Assembly (NCBI GenBank): GCA_003279855.1 | Contig: QCGO01000004.1 | Location: 1 to 64,000, forward strand | From: Prochlorococcus sp. AG-388-E21 | GTDB taxonomy: Bacteria; Cyanobacteriota; Cyanobacteriia; PCC-6307; Cyanobiaceae | DNA: 64,000 bases | Reading direction: 5' to 3' | Part shown: positions 206 to 53,317 of the stretch, in pieces | Numbering within the stretch: position 1 is the first letter of the stretch | Layout: each line of letters starts with the position of its first letter | Made by a program: the position numbers and the translations under genes | Notes under the pieces: model-generated | The model's database searches: none | Told to the model about the DNA's origin: nothing | What the model saw: only the letters and a program-made list of their open reading frames with translations

Positions 206-3175
206 ATGGAATCTATGAAACAGTTTAAAAATAATCATGTGGATCTTATTAGAAACAATGATCCGTTGGATAAAAATCGTGCATTGATAGAAGATTTGTG
301 GGAATCTGTATTGAGAGAAGAATGTCCTGATGATCAAGCAAATCGTTTAATACAGCTGAAGGAATTAAGTTATTCACATCAAGTTGAAGAATATAGTTCA
401 AAAAATTCTAAAAATGAAATAGTTGATATTGTTAATTCTATGGATTTAGCTGAATCAATTTCTGCAGCCAGAGCTTTTTCATTATATTTCCAGCTAGTTA
501 ATATTTTGGAACAAAGAGTTGAGGAAGATAGATATATACAGAGCTTTACTAATCAGAATGTTCAAAAATCACAAGATAATCTAGATCCATTTGCTCCTCC
601 TTTAGCAAGGCAAAATGCTCCCGTAACATTTAAAGAATTATTCTTTAGGCTTAGAAGATTAAATGTTCCTCCAGGAAAACTAGAGAAATTATTACAAGAG
701 ATGGATATCCGCTTAGTTTTTACCGCACATCCTACAGAGATAGTTAGACATACAATTAGGCATAAGCAAACCAGAGTAGCTAATCTACTGCAAAAAATAC
801 AAGTTGAAAAATTTTTAACACTTGAAGATATTAAATCTCTCAAAATACAATTAAAAGAAGAGATAAGACTTTGGTGGAGAACAGATGAGTTACATCAGTT
901 CAAACCATCAGTAATAGATGAAGTTGATTATGCACTACATTATTTTCAACAAGTTCTCTTTGATGCAATGCCTCAGTTAAGAGGGAGAATTTCTTCAGCT
1001 CTTACTGAAAATTATCCAGACGTTCAGATGCCAACTGAATCTTTTTGTACATTTGGATCTTGGGTAGGCTCTGATAGAGATGGGAATCCATCAGTTACTC
1101 CTGAAATTACTTGGAGGACTGCCTGTTACCAAAGACAATTAATGTTAGAGAGATATATCAAAGCGACCTCTAATCTTAGTGATCAACTAAGCGTCTCAAT
1201 GCAATGGAGCCAAGTAAGCTCATCTCTTTTGGAATCACTAGAAACAGATAGGGTTAAGTTTCCTGAAATTTATGAAGCAAGGGCAACAAGATATAGATCA
1301 GAGCCTTATAGATTGAAATTGAGTTATATTTTAGAAAAATTAAGATTGACCCACGAACGAAATAATTTACTAGCTGAAGGCGGATGGAAGTTATCTTTAG
1401 AAAGGGAATCTGATAACAAAAATTTAGAGCTAGTTGAAAAATTACATTATAAGTCTGTTGATGAATTTACTTATGATCTAGAATTAATAAAAAATAGTCT
1501 TAATAGTACAGATTTAACTTGTGAGGCAGTAAATAAGTTATTAACTCAGGTACATATTTTCGGCTTTTCTTTAGCAAGTTTGGATATACGTCAGGAGAGT
1601 ACTAGACATAGTGACGCAATACAAGAATTAACTAAATACCTTGAGTTGCCAAAACAATACGATCAAATGTCTGAAAAAGAGAGAATGCAATGGCTTACTG
1701 ATGAATTAAAGACAAAAAGGCCCTTGATTCCCTCTGAAGTTGACTGGAATAAAAGTACTGAAGAAACGTTCTCAGTATTTAAAATGGTCAAAAGATTACA
1801 AGAAGAATTTGGGAGTCGTATTTGTCATTCATATGTCATTTCAATGAGTCACAGTCCATCTGATTTGCTTGAAGTCCTTCTTTTGGCAAAAGAGATGGGA
1901 CTTATTGATCAAGGTTCTCAGAAATCGACATTGCTGGTCGTCCCTCTTTTTGAAACAGTTGAAGATCTCCAAAGAGCTCCGGAAGTAATGGAGCAATTAT
2001 TTCAATTAGATTTTTATAAATCACTATTACCAAAAGTTGGAGAAAGTTTTAAACCTCTCCAAGAGTTAATGTTAGGTTATTCAGATAGCAATAAAGATTC
2101 AGGATTCTTATCTAGCAACTGGGAAATTCATAGAGCTCAAATTGCTCTTCAAAATCTTTCAAGCAACAATAATATACTTTTAAGACTTTTTCACGGTAGG
2201 GGAGGTTCTGTAGGAAGAGGAGGAGGTCCTGCTTATCAAGCGATATTGGCTCAACCAAGTGGGACGCTCAAAGGCAGAATAAAAATTACAGAACAAGGGG
2301 AGGTTTTGGCTTCTAAATATAGTCTTCCTGAATTGGCTTTATATAATTTGGAGACTGTCACAACAGCAGTTATTCAGAATAGTTTGGTTATCAACAGACT
2401 TGATGCTACCCCAGAATGGAATGACTTAATGACTAGGTTGGCAGAAACATCCAGAATTCAATATAGAAAATTAGTACATGAGAATCCAAATTTGCTAACT
2501 TTTTTTCAAGAGGTCACTCCAATTGAAGAAATTAGTAAATTACAAATATCAAGTAGACCAGCAAGAAGAAAAAAAGGCGCAAAGGATTTATCAAGTTTAA
2601 GAGCAATCCCCTGGGTCTTTGGATGGACACAGAGTAGATTTCTTTTGCCAAGCTGGTTTGGAGTTGGTACGGCTTTATCCGTGGAATTAAAATCAGATCC
2701 AAAGCAAATTGAATTACTAAGAGTACTTCATCAAAGATGGCCCTTTTTTAGAATGCTCATATCTAAGGTAGAAATGACATTATCTAAAGTTGATTTAGAA
2801 GTAGCGAAATATTATGTTGACACACTTGGAAGTAAAGAAAATTCAAAGTCGTTTGAAGAGATTTTTGATGTTATCTCTAAAGAATATAATCTTACTAAAT
2901 CTTTAGTGCTTGAAATAACTGGTAAAAGTAAGCTTCTAGAATCTGATAAAGACCTAAGATCATCTGTTAACTTAAGAAATAAAACTATTATTCCTTTGGG
3001 GTTTTTACAAGTCTCACTTTTAAGAAGACTTCGAGATCAAACAAGACAACCACCAATTAGTGAGTTTCTGGAGGATAGGATTGAGTCTAAAAGAGCTTAT
3101 AGTCGTAGTGAATTATTAAGAGGAGCACTTTTAACAATTAATGGAATTGCGGCAGGGATGAGAAATACAGGATAA
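206..3175 (+). CDS. ppc: Phosphoenolpyruvate carboxylase
   Basis: Catalyses carboxylation of phosphoenolpyruvate by bicarbonate to oxaloacetate, feeding the incomplete TCA cycle and amino-acid synthesis in the cytoplasm. At 989 residues it has the usual bacterial length. Visible signatures in order are FTAHPTE (catalytic His, about residue 172), [22 protein letters not shown] (second active-site stretch), [14 protein letters not shown] (glycine-rich phosphate loop) and a C-terminal AAGMRNTG tail in which the last residue is the family's conserved C-terminal Gly. Met4 is an alternative start. The next gene begins 3 bp after the stop, so the two are probably cotranscribed. Nothing is broken. 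Confidence 0.98.
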
Positions 3176-50456: not shown

Positions 50457-51212
50457 TTATCTAATAGCTTTATTCCATCTGTATGATCTAGTAATCCTTC
50501 CTGCTGAAATAAGTTTTGATTGATAATGTAGAGAAATTTGATCATTAGTTACTTTTAAGGTGTCTATTCCTATGCCATTTCTTCCGTAATCTTTACCTGA
50601 ACTATGGTAATAAAATCCCTCTCCTTTATAAATACCAACATGATCACATTTATTTTTGTTTCCAAAAAATAAAATATCTCCTTTTTTAAGTGATTTATTG
50701 GTTTCTTTGAAATTGAAAAGATGCCTACAAAAACTTTTAATTTGATAAGAATCTCTTGGTATATAAATTCCATGATTTAAAAAAGCCGTTTGAATTAAGC
50801 CAGAACAGTCAAAATTAGGACCCAAAGTACCACCCCAAAGATATATATTTTTTACCTTAGATCGATCTTGGATCCAATTAAGAATCAATGGAATTTTTGC
50901 TTGTATTAACTTTTGATCAGATTCAACAAAACTATTTTTAATATCAAATCTCTCAATAAATAATTTATCTAAATCAATCCAGCATATATAACCATCTTCA
51001 TAAAATTGAACTAATATCCTCGATAATTTATTTTTACTTTGATAAAGACTTGGATAAATAAGTCTAAAAATTCTATTTCTGACTATTTCCGTCACTAAAT
51101 TATTTTCAGTTTCATTTTGATATCCAGAAATATTAATTTTTACTTTCCACCAAATAGTGTTTGAAAAATTAGTTTGCTTAAATAGTGAGATAGGGTCTAT
51201 ATATTCTTTCAT
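50457..51212 (-). CDS. NlpC/P60-family cell-wall hydrolase
   Basis: 251 residues. The catalytic Cys is in LGPNFDCSGLIQTAF and the His in NKCDHVGIYKGEGFYYHSSG. The N-terminal half (about 110 residues) resembles the SH3-like portion of cyanobacterial NlpC/P60 proteins; no signal peptide is obvious. It probably cuts peptide cross-links (D-Glu to diaminopimelate). Start codon lies 3 bp from the divergent serine hydrolase start. Confidence 0.88.
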   Translation of the reverse strand: MKEYIDPISLFKQTNFSNTIWWKVKINISGYQNETENNLVTEIVRNRIFRLIYPSLYQSKNKLSRILVQFYEDGYICWIDLDKLFIERFDIKNSFVESDQKLIQAKIPLILNWIQDRSKVKNIYLWGGTLGPNFDCSGLIQTAFLNHGIYIPRDSYQIKSFCRHLFNFKETNKSLKKGDILFFGNKNKCDHVGIYKGEGFYYHSSGKDYGRNGIGIDTLKVTNDQISLHYQSKLISAGRITRSYRWNKAIR

Positions 51213-51215
51213 AAA

Positions 51216-52115
51216 ATGTCTTTTTATTATTTACAAGAAGAAATGGGTTTAGCCTTAAATGATATCTTAGAGAGAGTTTGCTCTAACAATATAGAAAATT
51301 TAAGGAATGATATCGCAATAACTTGGATTAATTATAAAAGTGAAAGTAATCATATAAATAAAGGCTGTGGATTTGGAATCAATAATAGAAAACTCATTTA
51401 TCCTGCAAGCATCGTAAAGCTAATTTATGGCCTTGCTGCATACTCATGGATTGATACAAAAAAAATATTATTAACCCAAGAAATAAGTGATGCAGTCAAT
51501 AAAATGCTTTTTTACTCAAGTAATGATGCAACAAGCTTTTTAATCGATATTATCACTGGGACTACAAGCGGTCCATGTATAGAAGGTGATCCTTGGGAGA
51601 ATTGGAAATATCAAAGATCAATAATCAATGATTGGTTAAAAGAGCTTAATTGGAATGAATTAAATGAAATAAATTGCTGCCAAAAAACTTGGGATGATGG
51701 ACCATTTGGTCGAGAAAAAGAATTTTACGGAACTGAAAACAGCAATAGAAATATGATGACAACTGATGCTACTGCTAGGATTCTGGAGGAAATAATGATA
51801 AAGCTTGATTATCAAAAAGATAATTTAAATCTAAGAAGTTTTTTAAAAAGAAATTTAAATAAGGATGTTCTTAATAATGATCCTCTTAATCAAGTAGATG
51901 GTTTTTTAGGAGAGGGATTACCGGAGAATATTAATTTATGGAGTAAAGCTGGTCTCATGTCTCAAGCTAGACATGATGCTGCCTGGTGGGTTAATAACGA
52001 ATCAGTACAGACTTTATTAGTTGTTTTTGGTAATGGAGAAAAATACTTCAAAAATGAGACCTTATTTCCCGAAATAGCCAAGGCTGTGTACAAATATAAT
52101 AATAATTTTGTTTGA
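51216..52115 (+). CDS. Class A beta-lactamase-like serine hydrolase
   Basis: 299 residues. The SxxK nucleophile motif is IYPASIVKLIYGLA and the SxN motif is MLFYSSNDATSFLID. The third KTG-type motif is replaced by SKAGLMSQARHDAAWWV. No signal peptide is clear from ATG 51216; ATG 51243 is an alternative start. It may trim or sense peptidoglycan rather than confer resistance. Head-to-head with an NlpC/P60 hydrolase. Confidence 0.85.
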   Translation: MSFYYLQEEMGLALNDILERVCSNNIENLRNDIAITWINYKSESNHINKGCGFGINNRKLIYPASIVKLIYGLAAYSWIDTKKILLTQEISDAVNKMLFYSSNDATSFLIDIITGTTSGPCIEGDPWENWKYQRSIINDWLKELNWNELNEINCCQKTWDDGPFGREKEFYGTENSNRNMMTTDATARILEEIMIKLDYQKDNLNLRSFLKRNLNKDVLNNDPLNQVDGFLGEGLPENINLWSKAGLMSQARHDAAWWVNNESVQTLLVVFGNGEKYFKNETLFPEIAKAVYKYNNNFV

Positions 52116-52117
52116 TA

Positions 52118-52348
52118 TTAATTTAAATCATCTAAGAAATCTCTATCTAATTTATTTGTATAGGCTTCATAAGGTAACATCATAACCTCATCAAAATCGA
52201 AGTGATTAAGAATCCATTCCTTATATTCAGCTATTAAGCTATTTCTATCTTTATTATCTAATTCATGAATGCGTAATGCAGTATCTTTAAGGTTTTCTTT
52301 AATCAGGTTTTCAAGTTCTTTTTTATTCATGTTAGCTAGCTTCTCCAT
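52118..52348 (-). CDS. Small acidic partner of the resolvase-like protein
   Basis: 76 residues, highly charged and probably helical (NKKELENLIKENLKDTALRI). It ends in an acidic tail (LDRDFLDDLN). Its start overlaps the end of the resolvase-like gene by 17 bp, or begins 2 bp after it if read from Met7 (MNKKE). The overlap suggests coupled expression and a related function. I do not recognise the family. Confidence 0.6.
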   Translation of the reverse strand: MEKLANMNKKELENLIKENLKDTALRIHELDNKDRNSLIAEYKEWILNHFDFDEVMMLPYEAYTNKLDRDFLDDLN

Positions 52349-53054
52349 CTAAAATTATTCTTCTAATTGTTGATAAGGCAATCCCAGTTTGAGTTCTGAT
52401 TGATCTATATGAGCAACCCTCATTACGTAATCTCATCACTAATGATTCTTTTAAAGGACTAATTTTCGGTCTGCCACCTAAATTATTTCCATTTAATCTT
52501 CTTTGCAAAATAAGTTCTTTTTTCCTTTCGCCCAAAGACTCATTATCTAAATTATCTAACTCATATAAAATATTAAAGACTGACAAAGATATCTCTGATG
52601 AATATTCGGGAGACAAAAAACCAGATAAAGTTCTTAACTTAACATCATTATTCAAGAGTTTATGGATTGTCTTTATACATTCAGTCCTATTAGAAAATGC
52701 CCGATCTAGTTTTGTAACGACTAACTCATCTCCTTTTGATAAATAATTTAGAGCTTTTCTAAATTCGGGTTTTATTTCTTCATCTAAATTTATGATTTCA
52801 GAAAATATTAAGCTGCAACCCTCATTTTTTAGGCAATTTATTTGTTCTTTTAAGTAATCAAATTCACTATCTATAGCTCTTGCATATCCAATAGATTTAC
52901 ATTTTTTATTTTTTTCAGATAAAAGAAAACGTTTTCTTTTAAATTTGAAGGTCAAGGTTTTAATACATATATTTTTAACTGTATCAAATACTATTGAAAA
53001 AAACACTTTATAGAACATCAAATTGTAATAATATAATGAAATATTACTAATCAA
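52332..53054 (-). CDS. Resolvase-like protein with degenerate serine-recombinase catalytic site
   Basis: 240 residues. Residues from about 54 match serine recombinases: IGYARAIDSEFDYLKEQINC at the N-terminal end of the catalytic domain, and ELVVTKLDRAFSNRTECIKT corresponding to the KLDR region. Active enzymes read YARVS; here the Ser position is Ile/Asp, and the second Arg of the KLDR-x2-R motif is displaced. The C-terminal HTH (GGRPKISPLKESLVMRLRNE, then RSIRTQTGIALSTIRRII) is intact. The first 50 residues look unlike the family, so the start may be internal. Probably a DNA-binding protein without recombinase activity. Confidence 0.7.
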   Translation of the reverse strand: MISNISLYYYNLMFYKVFFSIVFDTVKNICIKTLTFKFKRKRFLLSEKNKKCKSIGYARAIDSEFDYLKEQINCLKNEGCSLIFSEIINLDEEIKPEFRKALNYLSKGDELVVTKLDRAFSNRTECIKTIHKLLNNDVKLRTLSGFLSPEYSSEISLSVFNILYELDNLDNESLGERKKELILQRRLNGNNLGGRPKISPLKESLVMRLRNEGCSYRSIRTQTGIALSTIRRIILDGEAS

Positions 53055-53317
53055 CGAACATATTATATCGTTTTAAAACTATATTAAAAATAACGTTCTA
53101 TATATTGTCCTGGTTTATGTTATTAGAACATTTTTGTTTACTGTATAATTAGTTTTTGTGGAAAAATGTTTAAAAATTGCCAAATTTTATCTAAAAGTAA
53201 GATTTAAATTAATTCGAGCGTTAATTAGAAATTTAATTTCTTTAGTGAATTAAATAAAAATAGTAAAGTTAAATTATTTTGATTAAAATTAGAAATGATT
53301 GGGTTGAATAAATTAAT
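53055..53317. promoter_or_regulatory. AT-rich divergent region between resolvase-like gene and lipA
   Basis: 263 bp, nearly all A/T. Several half-sites of type GAACAT or AACGTTC occur: GAACATATT (53056), AACGTTCTAT (53091) and AGAACATTTTTGTTT (53123). These spaced elements could be an operator for the resolvase-like protein. TATAAT is at 53142-53147, a good -10 for lipA. There is no ORF. Confidence 0.4.

Follow-up and report, generated by a model that had tools for sequence, protein, structure and literature searches.

The window analysed here, a stretch of 64,000 nucleotides of Prochlorococcus sp. AG-388-E21, contains a resolvase-like gene whose catalytic serine seemed to be missing, raising the question of whether its product can still recombine DNA and, if it cannot, what the gene has been kept for. 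A PF00239 resolvase domain was detected in the gene product (E = 5.7e-14, 52.9 bits against a curated cut-off of 23.3), and the closest solved relatives were the DNA invertase 4m6f, Sin, and the Tn3 and gamma-delta resolvases. The C-terminal region aligns closely with the HTH of active homologues, and with 4m6f over its length; its HTH_7 score was 13.1 bits, under the cut-off of 23.8, as was that of the active homologues (20.1 bits). An AF2 model made from a shallow alignment was unreliable in the catalytic domain and usable in the HTH alone, where pLDDT was about 90 in blocks 171-190. By sequence family, with an N-terminal resolvase domain and a C-terminal HTH, the gene can be assigned to the small serine recombinases, and it resembles Tn3/gamma-delta resolvase, Sin and the DNA invertases (PF00239 plus HTH_7) in domain order, fold as judged by sequence and C-terminal HTH. 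The preliminary description, in which the resolvase fold and HTH are kept, was thus upheld, the HTH being nearly invariant among orthologues. The gene probably starts at TTG 52955, a codon (GTG in L058) from which all full-length copies tested have an ORF of 207 codons. A start at 53054, with 'DTVKNICIK' read as protein, was rejected because the frame is broken in L049 though the DNA there is strongly conserved. The features of the locus are listed in Table 1.

Table 1. Features of the resolvase-like locus in the window, and serine-less copies in other genera
Feature	Position or locus	Strand	Basis
Resolvase-like gene, 207 aa; predicted catalytically dead serine recombinase with intact HTH	52332..52955	-	PF00239, active-site columns, start by comparison, pN/pS
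Catalytic-type domain, approximate, residues 21-145	52521..52895	-	Positions Ile28=Ser10, Lys62=Arg45, Arg85=Arg68, Ser88=Arg71
C-terminal HTH, approximate, residues 157-203	52347..52487	-	Near invariant, common to active homologues
Small acidic partner ORF, 70 aa from conserved ATG 52330	52118..52330	-	48/48 HL loci, alignment, helical model
Element B, TTGATACAGTTAAAAATATATGTATTAAAAC, adjoining the start codon; promoter-like and/or candidate operator	52957..52987	-	Conserved across HL
Candidate half-site A, TGTTCTATAAAG	53006..53017	-	Upstream alignment, pattern counts, genome count
Conserved block C, AGAACGTTATTTTTAATATAG, with GAAC half-site in reverse orientation	53079..53099	-	Upstream alignment
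Candidate half-site D, TGTTCTAATAAC	53119..53130	-	Upstream alignment, pattern counts, genome count
Other serine-less copies	L066/L101, L069/L103, L106, L107, L108, L182 (copy at 3049)

Active-site columns were read from an alignment of 105 sequences at the positions homologous to R8/S10/R45/D67/R68/R71/E124. The window protein carries R8-I10-K45-D67-R68-S71-D124, while same-type homologues of other genera show R-S-R-D/S-R-R-E in nearly all cases, the exceptions being the named dead or degenerate copies. A phmmer alignment likewise placed the Ile of YARAID on the Ser of YVRVS, confirming the earlier observation that the serine of YARVS had been lost. A nucleophile recovered by a shift in register, which would have restored a serine, was ruled out, as other orthologues have Asn in place of the Ser that lies two positions further along. 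Within the genus, position 10 holds I, T, V, A or L, and Ser in a single orthologue (L052); Lys occupies position 45 throughout, while S, A, C, K or Y stands at position 71, apart from two divergent members with Arg. With position 10 drifting and the Arg45 and Arg71 columns lost in all main HL copies, the catalytic set is therefore broken and the nucleophile position itself is drifting: of the residues that a functional serine recombinase has by alignment (Ser10 with Arg8, Arg45, Arg68 and Arg71), Ser10, Arg45 and Arg71 are replaced. The proposed displacement of the second catalytic Arg of the KLDR motif was not borne out, since the KLDR Arg is kept and the residues lost are Arg71, three residues on, and Arg45. 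In two homologues, L071 and L154, the start of the catalytic domain has an insertion after the serine (GYARTSGGGDTKQAAG) and ALSR instead of KLDR.

Matches to the gene were found in 211 of 266 genomes of the high-light (HL) genus and in 83 of the 87 near-complete ones, counts that include a few merely distant copies. The spacing between landmark motifs was constant in all 49 orthologues. The suggested dN/dS comparison was run as pN/pS, and pooled values were 0.27 in the catalytic domain and 0.045 in the HTH, from 328 pairs with catalytic dS below 0.6 that are not independent of each other. By these sequence measures the gene is under purifying selection and is not a pseudogene; since the altered active site is also fixed across the genus, the catalytic loss is more than chance. 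Relatives as distant as about 50% identity retain the gene order resolvase-like gene, small ORF, PF13354 protein, NlpC/P60 protein, and lipA adjoins the pair in nearer clades; the gene across the upstream gap, divergent from the resolvase-like gene, reads as lipoyl-synthase-like (lipA). In the window, the beta-lactamase-fold PF13354 protein lies at 51216-52115 (+) and the NlpC/P60 protein at 50457-51212 (-). In a second genome (G033, 1,657,990 bp) the gene was matched at 1,456,978-1,457,676, and from this position and the encoded peptide we infer that it is MED4 PMM1515. That gene, at 1,457,449, has been called a 'Site-specific recombinase' and was used there merely as a PCR locus (PMC7852597).

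The HL copies form one clade (support 100) on a stem of 1.15 changes per site. Six more copies, in five other genera (g10, g14, g17 twice, g30 and g33), have lost the nucleophile and kept the HTH; an AU comparison of one against several losses of catalysis gave p = 0.42, on long branches. Further copies with an intact catalytic set, from a branch that has diverged, are present in some HL genomes, whether or not the dead core copy is there too (L125, L126, L135, L136, L169, L171, L173, L176 and L178; G043 has two).

The small acidic ORF was found directly downstream in 48 of 48 HL loci with enough downstream sequence, so that the proposed pair is present in other strains and absent from none of these relatives. 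It had also been described as a 76-aa gene overlapping the resolvase-like gene by 17 bp. Its downstream position stands, but the ATG at 52348 needed for that length and overlap is absent from many relatives. As the shared start (MNKKELEN) lies 1 bp past the TAA of the resolvase-like gene, and 3-11 bp past its stop in divergent relatives and HLII, the overlap probably results from a misassigned start codon. The small protein is highly conserved in an alignment of relatives and is predicted to be all-helical (pLDDT 75). It gave no usable match in Pfam, NCBIfam or PHROGs, its predicted fold had no PDB match below E 0.001, and no phage relatives were detected among 50,697 records. A profile of the small protein did find, among 6284 ORFs, a 64-aa ORF after L060, L061 and L165 (E 8.6e-6 to 2e-3), which overlaps the stop codon of these active homologues from another genus. 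Because a related ORF directly follows active recombinases there, as the small ORF follows the dead copies in HL, the association of small ORF and recombinase probably predates the HL clade. Unlinked paralogues of the partner were also seen in genus g32 (L090-L096), with up to 14 first-look candidates per genome. Behind the active-type recombinases L060-L072, L097-L102 and L144-L181 there are varying ORFs of 50-70 aa, often with ATGA-type overlaps, which fall into a few recurring families (GGLSDYIVLK.., WKEEFKQLK.., IQYQDQFGKWRHL.., LVGVGLGFLLFTNPEARQITADLLRS..), as if the small genes beside an active-type recombinase had been exchanged over time.

The gap upstream of the resolvase-like gene consists of conserved islands D, C, A and B amid drifting AT-rich filler, and in the upstream alignment island A reads TGTTCTATAAAGTGTTTTTTT and island C AGAACGTTATTTTTAATAYAG. 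Even relatives at about 53% identity retain the core of element B, and no second copy of the element was found in the genome at up to 3 mismatches; this element may be an ordinary promoter. GAACAT half-sites had been suggested in the gap, and the words at about 53012-53017 and 53125-53130 do fall in conserved half-sites, while the word at 53057 lacks such conservation. Where an active homologue has the same recognition helix, TGTTCCAAWAAS half-sites are found at regular positions in front of its gene. An exact search of the 1.66-Mb genome gave six copies of the half-site TGTTCTAWWAAS, against 11 for the reversed control; this gap holds two of them, and the remaining four are isolated sites within or close to ORFs. 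Matches to GTTCYAHHAAS (H standing for A, C or T) were present upstream of 28 of 49 HL copies (0.32 in dinucleotide shuffles), 13 of 42 active copies (0.28) and 4 of the 6 other dead copies (0.08), ratios that are generous because the pattern was picked after the alignments were seen and the sequences are related. The exact pattern is missing in 21 of the 49 HL copies, and site A of HLII is TGTACTA. In one of the other dead copies, L106, tandem TGTTCTAATAAC half-sites lie 12 bp apart. A search of the genome for a regulon with the strict inverted pair GTTCT-N13-AGAAC returned one unrelated place, fewer than the control. Such conserved, specific candidate sites at the gene's own promoter are what would be expected of an autoregulatory DNA-binding protein.

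A crossover site should also show dyad symmetry. At the first half-site, a 32-bp dyad scored 7.1 of 14 in Synechococcus-type active genes against 3.4 in shuffled sequences, a sharp signal as expected of such a site. In HL genes the score was 3.8 against 4.6 when shuffled, so the dyad appears to be absent, and the lesser peaks that the scan gave, at 27 and 39 bp, are consistent with a tandem pair of GAAC half-sites. However, the dyad was also weak in five low-light-type active genes (4.6 against 3.7), and its absence from HL is therefore by itself no proof of lost recombination; the contrast with active genes is suggestive.

Taken together, a dead protein, a fixed pair, purifying selection and half-sites matching those of active relatives make a DNA-binding regulatory role the best reading of the locus. 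The earlier proposal of a regulatory pair, as opposed to a recombination system, agrees with these four points, even though its 17-bp overlap and its account of the KLDR Arg did not hold. We consider it reasonably probable that this is a domesticated resolvase, no longer able to cleave DNA but retained as a core DNA-binding protein on a relict res/operator region by its own gene. A small resolvase-type serine recombinase would have lost DNA cleavage and stayed on, its HTH binding GTTCTA-type half-sites that would be the remains of the recombination/operator region upstream. Binding at or beside its own promoter would then control, and probably repress, transcription of the gene and of the small partner that runs in the same direction, and the divergent lipA-like gene may be controlled as well. 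The small helical acidic protein, probably encoded on the same mRNA, may modulate the resolvase-like protein. Transposon resolvases of the Tn3 family repress their own promoter by binding res there, and in the res regions of known resolvases the half-sites lie upstream of the resolvase's own gene, as here.

An architectural role, in which the protein, seated on the upstream half-sites, would bend or bridge DNA and shape chromosome topology while controlling no particular promoter, is unlikely by comparison. At site II, where the half-sites are arranged head to tail, Sin is catalytically inactive and its DNA-binding domains mediate synapsis (PMC2428073), and S10A subunits of Tn3 resolvase, in which catalysis is abolished, still serve at accessory sites II/III (PMC9943657). 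Some HL copies have two GAAC half-sites 12 bp apart, and purifying selection still acts on the catalytic-type domain, the part of a resolvase that holds the dimer interface. Sin and Tn3 resolvase at accessory sites are like the regulator proposed here in being non-catalytic, DNA-bound scaffolds. They support an active site I, however, whereas the single PF00239 match in the 1.66-Mb genome (17 contigs) is the resolvase-like gene itself; an active serine recombinase that could serve as partner was looked for elsewhere in the genome, and none was found. More sites would also be expected of an architectural protein, but the genome search found paired sites at the gene's own promoter only. A toxin-antitoxin-like or similar pair, with the dead resolvase as the autorepressing DNA-binding component and the small protein as effector, or the reverse, seems less probable again. 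The small, tightly spaced operon, its DNA-binding autoregulator, the partner's presence at every HL locus scored and its unlinked paralogues would suit such a pair, but a single-copy core gene in fixed synteny is unlike most mobile toxin-antitoxin pairs, and no known family was matched in NCBIfam or PHROGs. It is very improbable that the protein is still a recombinase working through other residues, for although fold, Arg8, Arg68, half-sites and the Ser of L052 are kept, position 10 varies, Arg45 is lost in all orthologues and Arg71 in nearly all, and S10A by itself kills Tn3 resolvase (PMC9943657). An equally remote reading is that of a functionless, decaying remnant: its active site is dead and truly broken copies do exist in genus g32 (L073, L110), but against decay stand the constant motif spacing, pN/pS well below 1, retention in nearly all near-complete streamlined genomes and conserved non-coding elements.

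The proposed regulator differs from known small serine recombinases in its lost Ser10, Arg45 and Arg71, in having no recognisable 32-bp crossover dyad, and in being a fixed chromosomal core gene instead of part of a mobile element. Its picocyanobacterial active homologues (L060-L072, L144, L150, L154; 40-46% identity) share a near identical HTH and upstream GTTCYA half-sites, but have a complete catalytic set, a scattered distribution and, in Synechococcus-type members, a crossover dyad. Inactive serine recombinases are already a known kind, vaccinia F16 being a predicted example (Senkevich et al. 2011, cited in PMC11980589). Like the HL protein, F16 keeps a serine recombinase domain after loss of the active site; unlike it, F16 is a viral nucleolar protein, and the passage on it describes no operator (PMC11980589). 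The openly accessible literature searched yielded no regulator of the kind proposed, namely a dead core resolvase that has retained its sites and has a fixed small partner.

Regulators are few in the streamlined genome of high-light Prochlorococcus. Tentatively, a resolvase and its res region may have become a regulator and its operator in the Prochlorococcus lineage, possibly repeatedly, and the result in HL may be a core circuit with the small protein as co-factor. If the protein is a regulator, the label 'site-specific recombinase' on this core protein (MED4 PMM1515, by our inferred matching) would be a mis-annotation of a DNA-binding protein with a regulatory role. With one DNA-reading head and one kind of half-site in both active and dead relatives, the passage from recombinase to regulator would be testable step by step.
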